The translations under genes were made by a program, and so were the position numbers. A DNA stretch of 34,395 nucleotides from Methanobrevibacter sp. (GTDB lineage Archaea > Methanobacteriota > Methanobacteria > Methanobacteriales > Methanobacteriaceae): the NCBI RefSeq assembly GCF_017447225.1, contig NZ_JAFSNZ010000082.1, positions 1 through 34,395 of the forward strand, read 5' to 3'. Below the pieces are notes generated by a model. It saw only the letters and a list, made by a program, of their open reading frames with translations. It did no database searches and was not told the DNA's origin. Below, in pieces: positions 28,072 to 32,775 of the stretch (position 1 is the stretch's first letter; every line of letters begins with the position of its first letter).

Positions 28072-28110
28072 ATCTATATATCTGGAAAAACAAATTTAGT
28101 TATACCTAAA
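28072..28110 (+). promoter_or_regulatory. Promoter with palindromic operator of the BASS-like transporter
   Basis: TCTATATATC (28073-28082) is the TATA box. The palindrome TTTAGTTATACCTAAA (28095-28110) covers the expected transcription start and lies just before the GGTGA site. It differs by one base from TTTAGGTATACCTAAA at 32584-32599. It resembles DtxR-family metal-regulator operators (TTAGG-N4-CCTAA), which is inference. Confidence 0.5.
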
Positions 28111-28122
28111 AATGGTGATTGG

Positions 28123-29088
28123 ATGGATTTGATAGAAAAGATGGAACCGATAATTTTAATATTAGCCATATTCATAGGACTAATCTTAAGCAGAATAGAT
28201 TTGCTGGCCAGTAATACCGGAAATCTGATTAACTTATTCCTGTGCCTGATGCTATACGGATTATTTTTAGAGGTTCCTCTTAAAGACCTGAAAAAAAGCT
28301 TTAAAAATATCAAATTCACATCCACAAGCCTAATCATTAATTTTATATGGACACCGCTATTTGGTTATTTGTTAGGAGACATATTTTTAAATGGCAATAT
28401 CGATATATTCATCGGATTTTTCATGTTAATATTGACACCTTGCACTGACTGGTATTTGGTATTTACCAAAATGGCTAAAGGAGACCTGAACTTAAGCATA
28501 TCACTACTTCCTATAAACCTAATCTTGCAGATTATTTTACTTCCCATATATTTAATAATATTTTTCTCAAGCAACAATTCAATGAACTACATTGATCTTG
28601 GATATTCATTGCTGATAGTGATTGTGATACCGTTTGCATTAGCGCAGATAACTAAAATTATCTTAAAAAATAACTTGAAAGAAAAAGTAACCGGATTTTT
28701 TAGTGAATATCAGATCGTCTTTTTAGCATTAGCAGTTTTTGCAATATTTAACAGTAATGGAGAGCTATTGTTTGAAAATCTGGAATCAGTTTTAACAATA
28801 TTTCCTCCATTGCTTGCATTTTTTGCAGCGAACACTATTATAGACTTACTTTTATCTGAAAAAATCAACTTCACATACGAGGAATATGCAAGCCTTACCA
28901 TGACCACACTGGCTCGAAATTCACCATTGGCACTGGCCATTGCAATTAACTCATTTCCCGGACATGAACTGATAGCTATCGCGCTTGTTATCGGACCGCT
29001 GATAGAGCTGCCTGTCCTATATCTCGTTTCAAGATTTGCATTGATGATAAAAAATTCAGGACTCTTTTTTACATGCAGAATCAACTGA
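28123..29088 (+). CDS. ACR3/bile-acid:Na+ symporter-like membrane transporter
   Basis: A membrane protein of 321 residues with about ten helices. The block LTPCTDWYLVFTKMAKGDLNLSISLLPIN (key parts TPCTDWY and AKGDLNLS) matches the ACR3/BASS superfamily, where the Cys in the PCT motif is important in ACR3 arsenite efflux. PLALAIAINSFPG in the second half is the matching repeat segment. Export of an oxyanion or transport of an organic anion is possible; the substrate is not clear. The ATG has GGTGATTGG before it. Its end overlaps the convergent gene by eight bases. Confidence 0.85.
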   Translation: MDLIEKMEPIILILAIFIGLILSRIDLLASNTGNLINLFLCLMLYGLFLEVPLKDLKKSFKNIKFTSTSLIINFIWTPLFGYLLGDIFLNGNIDIFIGFFMLILTPCTDWYLVFTKMAKGDLNLSISLLPINLILQIILLPIYLIIFFSSNNSMNYIDLGYSLLIVIVIPFALAQITKIILKNNLKEKVTGFFSEYQIVFLALAVFAIFNSNGELLFENLESVLTIFPPLLAFFAANTIIDLLLSEKINFTYEEYASLTMTTLARNSPLALAIAINSFPGHELIAIALVIGPLIELPVLYLVSRFALMIKNSGLFFTCRIN

Positions 29089-29779
29089 TAAAGCTTTCAA
29101 AAAGTGTAAATAGCATTGGGATTCTGCAAATCAAAGCCAAAATTATTAAAATGAATATTGCTCCGATTGCAAAGTTTCTATAATATTTTTTTGAAGAGAC
29201 AGGAGCGAATAGTTTGACGCCTGCAGGAGTCGTTGCATCAAGAACAACATGAGAAAACAGTCCTAAAAACAAAGACAGGACTATCTGAATATAAGTTATT
29301 TCAAATGCCCGTAAAAACACTACAGAAATGAAAAATAATGGGATGAATATAGGAAGTAACCTTTTATTAAGGAATAGAAAGCTTAAAAGAGCTATCAGTA
29401 TTGCGATTAAGTAGTTATTCGGGAGGACTGTTACATTAATTATCAAATCCCACCCCCATATTAATATTAGAGAAACTGCAGAAGCCAATATTATAGTTCC
29501 AGGGATAGAATGTGTAAAACTTCTGTGTTCTGAGAAATAAAAGGTTACACCGAGAAATACTATTATCAGTCCTATAAAATAAGGCAATTTTAGGACATAT
29601 AATGATATGAATACCAATAAACCTAAAATAATCATCTTATAAACATTCTCTTTCCTGAATTTATGATCAAAGTCTGGAATGTTTGCACCAATGACGGCCA
29701 AAGCAATTATCAGAGGATTAAAAGAAAACATCAATGCCAATATTAATGCAAACAGAGAATGACCCTTATAAGAAGACAT
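29081..29779 (-). CDS. YdjM-type membrane-bound metal-dependent hydrolase
   Basis: A 232-residue protein with about six membrane helices. The metal-binding pattern of the YdjM family is complete: KGHSLFALILAL, GANIPDFDHKFR, EHRSFTHSIPG and FSHVVLDATTPAGVKLFAP, giving a His/Asp set at the membrane face. Biochemical function is unproven for most members; phospholipid or LexA-related roles have been proposed in bacteria. Start: AAGGTGATAAC before the ATG. An ATTTATATTTA box lies upstream near 29830. Confidence 0.88.
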   Translation of the reverse strand: MSSYKGHSLFALILALMFSFNPLIIALAVIGANIPDFDHKFRKENVYKMIILGLLVFISLYVLKLPYFIGLIIVFLGVTFYFSEHRSFTHSIPGTIILASAVSLILIWGWDLIINVTVLPNNYLIAILIALLSFLFLNKRLLPIFIPLFFISVVFLRAFEITYIQIVLSLFLGLFSHVVLDATTPAGVKLFAPVSSKKYYRNFAIGAIFILIILALICRIPMLFTLFESFIS

Positions 29780-29874
29780 GTTATCACCTTACTTACAAAA
29801 ATCCTAATGGATTTCATTAATATTTAAATAAATATAAATATATCTAGTTTATCCGAGAGCATTTGAACAGTAAT

Positions 29875-30615
29875 TCAAAATCCAAAATAAGCTAAAAAAC
29901 TTTTCATCTGCTCTAAAGACTTTTCAAAACTTCCTTTTCCGATTGAAGCAAATGGAGACAATACTTCACATGTAACCGCAGGAGTTCCTCTCAGATTGCA
30001 CACATCCTCAACGGCTCCTTTATACTGTGAGCCTGCAATATCATATGTGATTATTTCACTTCCGACATTTTGGGAAATGTAGCGTGCTATCAAAAAGCTT
30101 TCGGGAGACGGGTTTTTTGATGAAAACACCGATTCACAACCGGGATTGCTGTTATATGCTGTTGAGTGAAAATCACCGACAAAATCTATTTTCAGCTCTT
30201 CAATGGAGCGAACAATTTGGTTGCTTAATGAATTAGTGATATGTGCTGCCCTATTTAAATCTAGTGAATTGAATGTTCTTTCATTGTTCATTGTAGATTT
30301 TGGACTGGCAAAAGGGATAAAATAAATAGTGTTGTTTATTTTTTTGTCGATTAACTCATTCAATAATGTTAAATTAGCTAATTGTGGAGGTAATTCGTTT
30401 CCATGGATACCGGATAAAATAAGAATTTTTTTACCTTTATTTCCCATTTTAAAAATTGGGGTTCCGTAAACACAGGAATATAAAACGAATCTGGAAAAAT
30501 CAGTCAATCTGATTTCTTCAAAAATATTCTTGTTTCTGGAAATATAGCCCCTTGAGAGAAAAGAAACATATGTCATTTCCACATTTTCAAAATTATCCAC
30601 AGCATCGAAATCCAT
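29875..30615 (-). CDS. Succinylglutamate desuccinylase/aspartoacylase-family hydrolase (M14-like)
   Basis: A 246-residue zinc hydrolase. Zinc ligands are His71 and Glu74 (GIHGNE) and His150 (GDFHS); DLNR (119-122) is the conserved substrate-binding Asn-Arg, and Glu216 (TCEVLSP) the catalytic base. All key residues of the AstE/AspA family are in place. It should cleave an N-acyl amide bond of an amino acid or a related carboxypeptidase substrate; the exact one is not known. It is divergent from the helicase, with only 47 bases between. Confidence 0.9.
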   Translation of the reverse strand: MDFDAVDNFENVEMTYVSFLSRGYISRNKNIFEEIRLTDFSRFVLYSCVYGTPIFKMGNKGKKILILSGIHGNELPPQLANLTLLNELIDKKINNTIYFIPFASPKSTMNNERTFNSLDLNRAAHITNSLSNQIVRSIEELKIDFVGDFHSTAYNSNPGCESVFSSKNPSPESFLIARYISQNVGSEIITYDIAGSQYKGAVEDVCNLRGTPAVTCEVLSPFASIGKGSFEKSLEQMKSFLAYFGF

Positions 30616-30662
30616 ATTAATTTATTAAATCAAAGTCTTATTTAACATTTTTACTTGTTGGG

Positions 30663-32588
30663 ATGAAATTGAAAAAATATATTAAAAAATTAATTAAACT
30701 TGTCAATTATGAGCGCGAAGCTGAAATCGAACTGATGGTTTCTGAAATAGAAAAGATGTCAGGCCAAAAAAGGGAAGAACTTGGAAGAGCCATCAATAAG
30801 GTTAAAGGCAAATATATTGGAAAGGAACTGGGCTTAAACATTGTACAGTTCGGAAGACCTGAAATCATAGACACTGAAATCAGTGTTGGAGACATGATTC
30901 TTGTAAGTACAGGAAATCCACTGCGAAGCGACCTGACAGGTACCGTAACTGAAAAAGGAGCCAGATTTGTAAAAGTTGCCTTTGACGGAAGGGTTCCCAA
31001 ATGGGCACTGAAAAAAAAGGTGCGTCTAGACTTATATGCCAATGACATTACATTCAGACGAATGGAGGATAATCTGAAGCATTTAAGCTTAAGGGGTAAA
31101 AATGCATTGGAATATTCCCTGAACAAAAGAGACCCCCAGCCAAGCAGAGACAATGTTTATATCGACTATATTGACCAGCATTTAAACGAATCACAAAAAT
31201 TAGCGGTTAAAAACTGTTTAACTACACAAAATTTCTTTTTAGTTCACGGTCCTTTCGGAACAGGGAAGACAAGGACATTAGTCGAATTGATATCCCAGGA
31301 AGTAAGACAGCACAGGAAAGTTCTCACAACCGCTGAAAGCAATGCTGCAGTGGACAACATTGTTGAAAGGCTTGTTCTCAATAAGAAACCGAAGATAACC
31401 AGATTGGGCCATCCGCAAAGGGTATCCAAAGACAATATTACCTACACATTAGCCTATAAAGTTGAAAAACACTCCCTTAACGATAAGATAAAAAGAATCC
31501 ATAAAAAAATCGATAATTTAATTGAAAAAAGAAGCAGCTTTACAAAGCCAACTCCACAATACAGAAGAGGATTTAGCGACCATGACATATTATATCATGC
31601 CTCCAAGGGAAAGGGAGGGCGTGGAATAAGTGCCGAGAAAATGAAGTCCATGGCAAACTGGCTTGATTACAATTTAGAAATCGATGAACTTCATGATGAG
31701 ATTAAAAGAGTGGAAAACAAGATGATCAAGGATATTATTGAAACAAGCGATGTGATACTATCCACCAACTCATCAGCTGCACTTGACAGCATTAAAGACA
31801 CAAAATTCGATGTGGTGATAGTTGATGAGGCATCACAGGCAACAATTCCAAGTGTTCTGATTCCGATAGCCAAGGCCCGCAGATTCATTCTTGCAGGAGA
31901 CCACAAGCAACTTCCGCCAACCATAATCAGCGACAGGGCAGGTGATTTGCAGGATACGCTGTTTGAATCACTGATTGAGAAATATCCTCACAAGTCACAG
32001 CTTCTGAATGTTCAGTACCGTATGAACAAGACACTTATGGAGTTTCCGAACCATGAATTCTATAACAACAACCTGAAAAGTGATTCAAGCGTTAACGACA
32101 TTACCTTAAAGGATATTTCGGATGTTGAAGACGATGATGCATTATTGTTTATAGACACTTGTGACTTGGAAAAAAATCATGAAAAGCATCTCAAGGATTC
32201 AAAGTCTATTGTGAATCATATCGAGGCCAGAATTGCCCTGAAGGTAGCTAATGACTACATCAAATCCGGAATTTCACCAGAAGACATTGGAATAATTAGC
32301 CCATATGCTGATCAGGTAAAAATAATATCAGAAAAGACAGATATTGAAGTCAAGACTGTTGACGGTTTTCAGGGCCGTGAAAAAGAAATCATTATAATTT
32401 CAACAGTTAGAAGCAATGAATATGGACATATTGGATTTTTAAAGGATTTAAGAAGGCTTAATGTTGCAATAACCCGTGCTAAAAGAAAACTGATAATTAT
32501 AGGCAACAGTGAAACGTTGAAATCAAATGCAACATATGAACGCTTGATTGATTTTGTTGAAGACAAAAACTTGAGAGTTATAATTTAG
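30663..32588 (+). CDS. SF1 (UPF1/IGHMBP2-like) DNA/RNA helicase
   Basis: A 641-residue helicase of the IGHMBP2/SMUBP-2 group found widely in archaea. The N-terminal OB-like part (about 70-150) has VGDMILVSTGNPL and LDLYANDITFRRMEDNL. The helicase core follows: Walker A at about 195 (HGPFGTGKT), DEAD-like VDEASQ at about 386, QYRM at about 449, VDGFQGREKEIIIIS at about 565 and NVAITRAKRKL at about 598. No accessory zinc or R3H domain is present. It unwinds 5'-3' in studied relatives; the cellular role is unknown. The ATG has no strong ribosome-binding site. Confidence 0.93.
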   Translation: MKLKKYIKKLIKLVNYEREAEIELMVSEIEKMSGQKREELGRAINKVKGKYIGKELGLNIVQFGRPEIIDTEISVGDMILVSTGNPLRSDLTGTVTEKGARFVKVAFDGRVPKWALKKKVRLDLYANDITFRRMEDNLKHLSLRGKNALEYSLNKRDPQPSRDNVYIDYIDQHLNESQKLAVKNCLTTQNFFLVHGPFGTGKTRTLVELISQEVRQHRKVLTTAESNAAVDNIVERLVLNKKPKITRLGHPQRVSKDNITYTLAYKVEKHSLNDKIKRIHKKIDNLIEKRSSFTKPTPQYRRGFSDHDILYHASKGKGGRGISAEKMKSMANWLDYNLEIDELHDEIKRVENKMIKDIIETSDVILSTNSSAALDSIKDTKFDVVIVDEASQATIPSVLIPIAKARRFILAGDHKQLPPTIISDRAGDLQDTLFESLIEKYPHKSQLLNVQYRMNKTLMEFPNHEFYNNNLKSDSSVNDITLKDISDVEDDDALLFIDTCDLEKNHEKHLKDSKSIVNHIEARIALKVANDYIKSGISPEDIGIISPYADQVKIISEKTDIEVKTVDGFQGREKEIIIISTVRSNEYGHIGFLKDLRRLNVAITRAKRKLIIIGNSETLKSNATYERLIDFVEDKNLRVII

Positions 32589-32609
32589 GTATACCTAAAC
32601 TTTATATAT
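32584..32609 (+). promoter_or_regulatory. Palindromic operator and TATA box before a candidate small RNA
   Basis: TTTAGGTATACCTAAA (32584-32599) is a perfect 16-base palindrome that begins in the last codons of the helicase gene. TTTATATAT (32601-32609), a strong TATA box, follows after one base, so the palindrome covers the TFB site. A one-mismatch copy lies at 28095-28110. Confidence 0.5.
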
Positions 32610-32627
32610 TATGAAAATCTAAATATA

Positions 32628-32775
32628 AAGTAGAGAGCGAAATGTGCACTCACAATTAAAACACTTTCAAACTCTGCTCTTAATTGGGTGTTTAATTTTT
32701 CAAAAGCCCATATAACTTTTCAACCTCAATTATAACTCCCGATTAAGAGTACTCTTCTGTCAATTACTTTTTTTG
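32628..32775 (+). ncRNA. Candidate small RNA or long structured leader upstream of argG
   Basis: Starts about 25 bases after the TATA box at 32601-32609 and ends in a 7-base T-run at 32768-32774. Pairings: CTCTTAATTGGG (32677-32688) with CCCGATTAAGAG (32738-32749), 12 pairs with one G-T; CAATTAA (32653-32659) with TTAATTG (32680-32686), which would exclude the first; and the 12-base palindrome AAGAGTACTCTT near 32745. The region has no open frame. Since argG has its own TATA-like box near 32794, a separate RNA is favoured, but a regulatory leader with alternative folds cannot be ruled out. I recognise no family. Confidence 0.4.

Follow-up and report, generated by a model that had tools for sequence, protein, structure and literature searches.

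What does a 16-bp palindrome do when it stands in two promoter regions of one methanogen contig? Methanobrevibacter is a gut methanogen and methanogenesis is among the most iron-hungry metabolisms, and to our knowledge the way in which archaea, methanogens above all, ration iron is largely unknown. The window analysed here is a 34,395-nt stretch of Methanobrevibacter DNA (contig 77 of a genome of 2.16 Mb in 117 contigs, which was searched as a whole), and its palindromes lie ahead of a candidate small RNA gene, here called RNA1, and of a membrane transporter gene. The analysis points, with a probability of roughly 0.8, to a model in which both palindromes are operators of a DtxR-type iron repressor and RNA1 is a non-coding RNA that would act by base-pairing in iron shortage. 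The operator, its regulon, its conservation and the RNA1 gene with its structure were computed; from these we infer repressor binding, iron as the signal, repression as its sign and base-pairing as the mode of action.

The operator and its candidate repressor

The palindrome ahead of RNA1, TTTAGGTATACCTAAA (32584-32599, no strand assigned), is perfect, and a single C separates it from a forward-strand TATA box, TTTATATAT (32601-32609), as an earlier note on this DNA had claimed. The palindrome ahead of the transporter, TTTAGTTATACCTAAA (28095-28110, likewise without strand), has one mismatch and lies between the TATA box (TATATAT, 28075-28081, forward strand) and the start codon; beginning 14 nt past that TATA box, it covers the expected transcription start, where the same note had placed it. 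Across the genome the 16-mer occurs 4 times exactly and about 10 times with one mismatch. Because its middle four bases vary freely, we define the operator as TTTAGG-N4-CCTAAA (TTTAGGNNNNCCTAAA), which has 18 exact genomic copies, against 4 for the reversed motif used as a control and 0.25 expected from base composition. All 18 exact copies are intergenic. Operators adjoin feoA and feoB (the latter with a cluster of several sites), two heavy-metal P-type ATPase genes, ABC exporter genes, an FeGP-cofactor gene that itself stands beside hmd, an Fe-S operon containing HdrB (the heterodisulfide-reductase region) and the gene for a hydrogenase delta subunit. The promoter bias that had been predicted for such hits is thus present, with the feoB and P-type metal ATPase promoters among them, and both window sites are kept across the genus. 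Exact sites were also examined in a second family of the order, where all eight precede feoA-feoB; the four genomes of a third family contained none. In the window alone, two matches with up to three mismatches are only mildly unusual, since 3 of 100 shuffles also reach two, and on that figure the palindromes could be chance products of AT-rich DNA. Against such an origin speak the genome-wide excess, the intergenic placement, the functional coherence and the conservation; the genome-wide counts and the sites in relatives led us to rule it out, and its probability is practically negligible.

The genome encodes one DtxR-family protein (PF02742), composed of Fe_dep_repress and Fe_dep_repr_C domains followed by a C-terminal FeoA domain. 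An operator with one or two mismatches lies 45-61 nt upstream of the gene for this regulator in 10 of 10 genus genomes. A QACEMEH-type motif, with Cys at the position of DtxR Cys102, was found in 19 of the 20 regulator loci examined; we take this Cys to mark an iron-type metal site. Given the iron-gene regulon, the operator at the regulator's own gene and the Cys ligand, we conclude that both palindromes are most likely operators of this sole DtxR-family repressor, with an Fe(II)-responsive DtxR type by far the most likely binder. The operators might instead belong to a manganese (MntR-like) or mixed-metal regulator. The best NCBIfam model for the protein is of the MntR type, although all scores fall below cut-off; its relatives in the PDB are IdeR, DtxR, ScaR and MntR, with SloR also among the best matches, so that two manganese-type regulators, ScaR and SloR, rank high; and the regulon includes heavy-metal ATPases. 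However, the most conserved sites sit at feoA and feoB, and in the alignment ScaR and SloR have Glu where this regulator has Cys. The feoAB promoters and the DtxR-like ligand favour iron, and a manganese or mixed-metal signal appears improbable. The promoter hits, the conservation and the operator at the only DtxR gene together support the earlier proposal that the transporter and the small RNA would share a DtxR-family metal operator.

The transporter (321 aa, 28123-29088, forward strand) belongs to the SBF/BASS superfamily (Pfam PF01758, E 6e-25). It is closer to the ACR3 type (arsenite exporters) than to classical BASS proteins, although its match to the NCBIfam acr3 model, 121.9 bits, is under the 282.8-bit cut-off. 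About 40 of 60 genus genomes have a strong ortholog. The operator (consensus TTTAGTYATRCCTAAA) lies 10-15 nt before the ATG in 29 of 30 orthologs, and the order of TATA box, operator and ATG is kept. Just past the TATA-like element and before the start codon, a dimer on this site would prevent transcription from starting.

The RNA1 gene and its proposed mode of action

RNA1 is predicted to span about 145 nt (32630-32774, forward strand), with its start placed about 25 nt past the TATA box and its end at a T-run (32768-32774). Searched with blastn, the stretch after 32584-32599 matched 59 of 60 genus genomes, only about 45 of them over a long stretch and the rest as short fragments; the long matches stop at the T-run around 32774. 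An exact TTTAGGN4CCTAAA precedes RNA1 in all 44 RNA1-carrying loci examined, and in the 30 distinct genomes that were aligned it is followed directly by an element resembling CTTTATATA. The RNA has a variable 5′ hairpin and then a 14-bp stem, seen by alignment and covariation, whose forward-strand arms (32675-32688, ACUCUUAAUUGRGG in the family, and 32738-32751, CCYCAAUUAAGAGU in the family) close an ultra-conserved loop, GCCCAUAUAACUUUUCAACCUCAAUUAUA (32706-32734). The loop, which includes an anti-Shine-Dalgarno-like CCUC, is put forward as the pairing surface, and within it CAACCUCAAUU is invariant in all 30 sequences. Across the alignment 98.8% of the stem's cells are paired and four pairs show two-sided changes, a result equalled by none of 500 shuffles. 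Five homologues gave folding z-scores of -3.0 to -4.9, and the loop is mostly unpaired in the predicted folds of homologues. A covariance model matched the window at 32632-32774 (E 1e-27). Run on 150 genomes of the order, it found RNA1, nearly always as a single copy, in 49 of the 67 that belong to the genus, with one weak hit elsewhere in the order. Among 84,980 GTDB species, the exact RNA1 pattern occurs in 26 Methanobrevibacter records, metagenome-assembled genomes of M. millerae and M. thaueri included, and, apparently by chance, in three unrelated bacteria. RNA1 had no Rfam match at the gathering score. We discarded a tRNA identity because a tRNA search gave none, and a protein-coding transcript because the conserved loop has single-base insertions and deletions and the alignment holds no conserved open reading frame. 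Conservation and covariation thus indicate that the candidate RNA of the earlier note is a real, unannotated gene.

An IGHMBP2-family helicase gene nearly always lies upstream of RNA1, and in most genomes the same strand carries argG (argininosuccinate synthase) some 110-130 nt further on, as would be expected if RNA1 were a cis-acting leader, or attenuator, of argG and not a small RNA acting in trans. However, RNA1 and its operator persist in the 7 of 30 genomes in which argG is not adjacent, because another gene follows, argG is displaced or the contig does not reach it; the other neighbours are a gene for an ABC substrate-binding-like protein, an opposite-strand surface protein gene and adhesin-like genes. 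RNA1 conservation also stops at the T-run, beyond which argG has a TATA-like element of its own. Since the following neighbour changes while RNA1 stays, we treat RNA1 as a stand-alone gene and set the leader aside as very improbable. As to how such a gene would act, AUAAUUGAGGUUGAAAAGUUAUAUGGG, the loop's reverse complement, looks like a ribosome-binding site with a start codon after it, and this resemblance makes an anti-ribosome-site role attractive. Base-pairing with mRNAs is slightly favoured by our assessment, and we hold it only as the most likely mode because no recurrent target emerged and the class tests were negative. RNA1 could also work through a bound protein or as an RNA sponge. 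That the searches gave no clear mRNA target fits such a role, as does the length of the conserved loop, which exceeds what a short seed requires; the anti-Shine-Dalgarno-like loop core and the plausible mRNA partner of a second RNA family that shares the operator (see below) argue the other way, and we consider a protein-bound or sponge role doubtful.

Several observations count against the model as a whole. Genome searches for the loop complement found no recurrent match to a ribosome site or mRNA. Class tests over 653 gene starts, covering proteins with Fe-S motifs and secreted proteins, did not rise above core-preserving shuffles (the target statistics were drawn from about 626 kb of sampled genome stretches). 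The minimum-energy fold of the window's own RNA1 pairs part of the loop. The covariance model gave no RNA1 hit in 18 genus genomes, some of them about 99% complete. At the transporter, the upstream half-site reads TTTAGT, with G changed to T, in nearly all species (loci L097-L126), a conserved and unexplained asymmetry that may reflect an initiator constraint. Adhesin-like genes were a weak lead as RNA1 targets and were dropped after failing the class test.

A second RNA family and the proposed iron response

Following the operator elsewhere led to a second, multicopy RNA family unrelated to RNA1. In genome G000 its copies lie at C22:11166-12080, C86:3785-4049 and C44:857-1118 (loci L023, L029 and L025), and three tandem copies stand beside rubrerythrin. 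Two operators 68-72 nt apart bracket the promoter and start. The family model finds 1-5 copies per genome in 57 of 60 genus genomes (31 of the 31 good ones), 10 of 24 predicted pairs show two-sided changes, and there was no Rfam match at the gathering score. The genome's other SBF/BASS transporter gene (L029:2709-3650, C86) is convergent to one copy.

In the window's own genome, a single-stranded segment of the second RNA, AAUCUCCAAAAUU, is complementary, without mismatch over 13 nt, to the ribosome site of fwdF, which encodes the iron-rich polyferredoxin of formylmethanofuran dehydrogenase. At the fwdF ribosome site AAAATTTTGGAGAT is conserved in all 30 of 30 genomes, even though the site overlaps the end of an upstream reading frame and the preceding codons of that frame show synonymous variation. 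The RNA seed itself varies among genomes, the longest perfect fwdF match being 7-13 nt. Among 654 gene starts fwdF ranks second, a rank that is not independent evidence because fwdF was found by an anti-seed search. A class test against core-preserving shuffles was negative for the second RNA, and the duplex energies that had hinted at a richness in iron proteins were dropped after the negative class tests, with fwdF excepted; we retained it as a partner because its site is conserved. We regard the pairing as a candidate for iron sparing and not as proven.

In the response that we propose, when iron is present a repressor dimer on 32584-32599, beside the RNA1 TATA box, would keep TBP and TFB from loading, and a dimer on 28095-28110 would cover the start region of the transporter transcript. 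When iron falls, RNA1 and the transporter would be released together with feoB, the metal ATPases, the repressor gene and the second RNA family. The stem-presented loop of RNA1 (about 145 nt) would then most likely pair with ribosome-binding sites of mRNAs and cut their translation during the shortage. The pattern suggests that these archaea, like bacteria, meet iron shortage partly with regulatory RNAs. The chances are about even for the broader proposal of RNA-based iron sparing in Methanobrevibacter, in which a DtxR-type repressor would free two unrelated RNA families, the single-copy RNA1 with its loop resembling a ribosome-site antisense and the second (1-5 copies) pairing with the ribosome site of fwdF and probably with those for other iron-rich methanogenesis proteins. 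With the operator, gut and rumen methanogens have an iron regulon that can be put to the test, and through the RNA genes one can ask directly whether methane-forming enzymes are tuned by iron supply.

Bacterial small RNAs under iron repressors are textbook biology, and the bacterial DtxR box is a longer, overlapping operator, whereas here the operator is a single 16-bp TTTAGGN4CCTAAA unit. The DtxR-FeoB pair of methanogens, and its response, have been described in Methanococcus voltae (PMC8516115). The present regulon resembles that pair and the bacterial DtxR/IdeR regulons in having a DtxR-family repressor and an operator whose TTAGG/CCTAA half-sites mark both the iron-uptake genes and the gene of the regulator itself; it differs in that the operator also stands at small RNA genes and the promoters are of the archaeal TATA type. 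The RNA genes are apparently under an iron repressor, as are RyhB, PrrF, FsrA and IsrR, the last an iron-repressor-controlled bacterial small RNA (PMC9410917), and the second family may share with them a match to a ribosome site on the mRNA of an iron-rich protein. Unlike them, the present RNAs are archaeal, under DtxR-type rather than Fur control, without an Rfam family and known here from sequence. Haloferax volcanii s479 is likewise an archaeal small RNA tied to metal homeostasis, but it is linked to the transport of zinc, not iron, and its gene lies between a CRISPR locus and cas genes (PMC8155600). In the open-access literature we found no archaeal iron-controlled small RNA, the nearest cases being s479 and the M. 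voltae response, although an older description elsewhere is possible. DtxR operators and bacterial iron-controlled small RNAs are already known; RNA1 is previously undescribed.

Further elements beside the operator

Operators also occur upstream of some genes for adhesin-like surface proteins (L033:5433 and L035:5099), which suggests that some adhesins are under iron control. A third RNA-like element with paired operators lies beside feoB (at L021:5291-5540, on C11 in the interval from the feoB promoter to the following gene, and at L043:1433-1501); its conserved stretch (ctaatttgatattactaatgtgttg...) is also present in genome G014, and its sequence differs from both other RNAs. A small Cys-rich open reading frame (MATKNKPKCCESAANETNTVKRIFKKIWTFFFGCNCH, L021:5609-5722), behind an operator-like site near feoB, is possibly a FeoB-associated small protein. 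At L028:6374-6436 (C66), a very short open reading frame (MIIGIENLKEKQKEKDEESD) with a strong ribosome site stands directly behind an exact operator and a TATA box.

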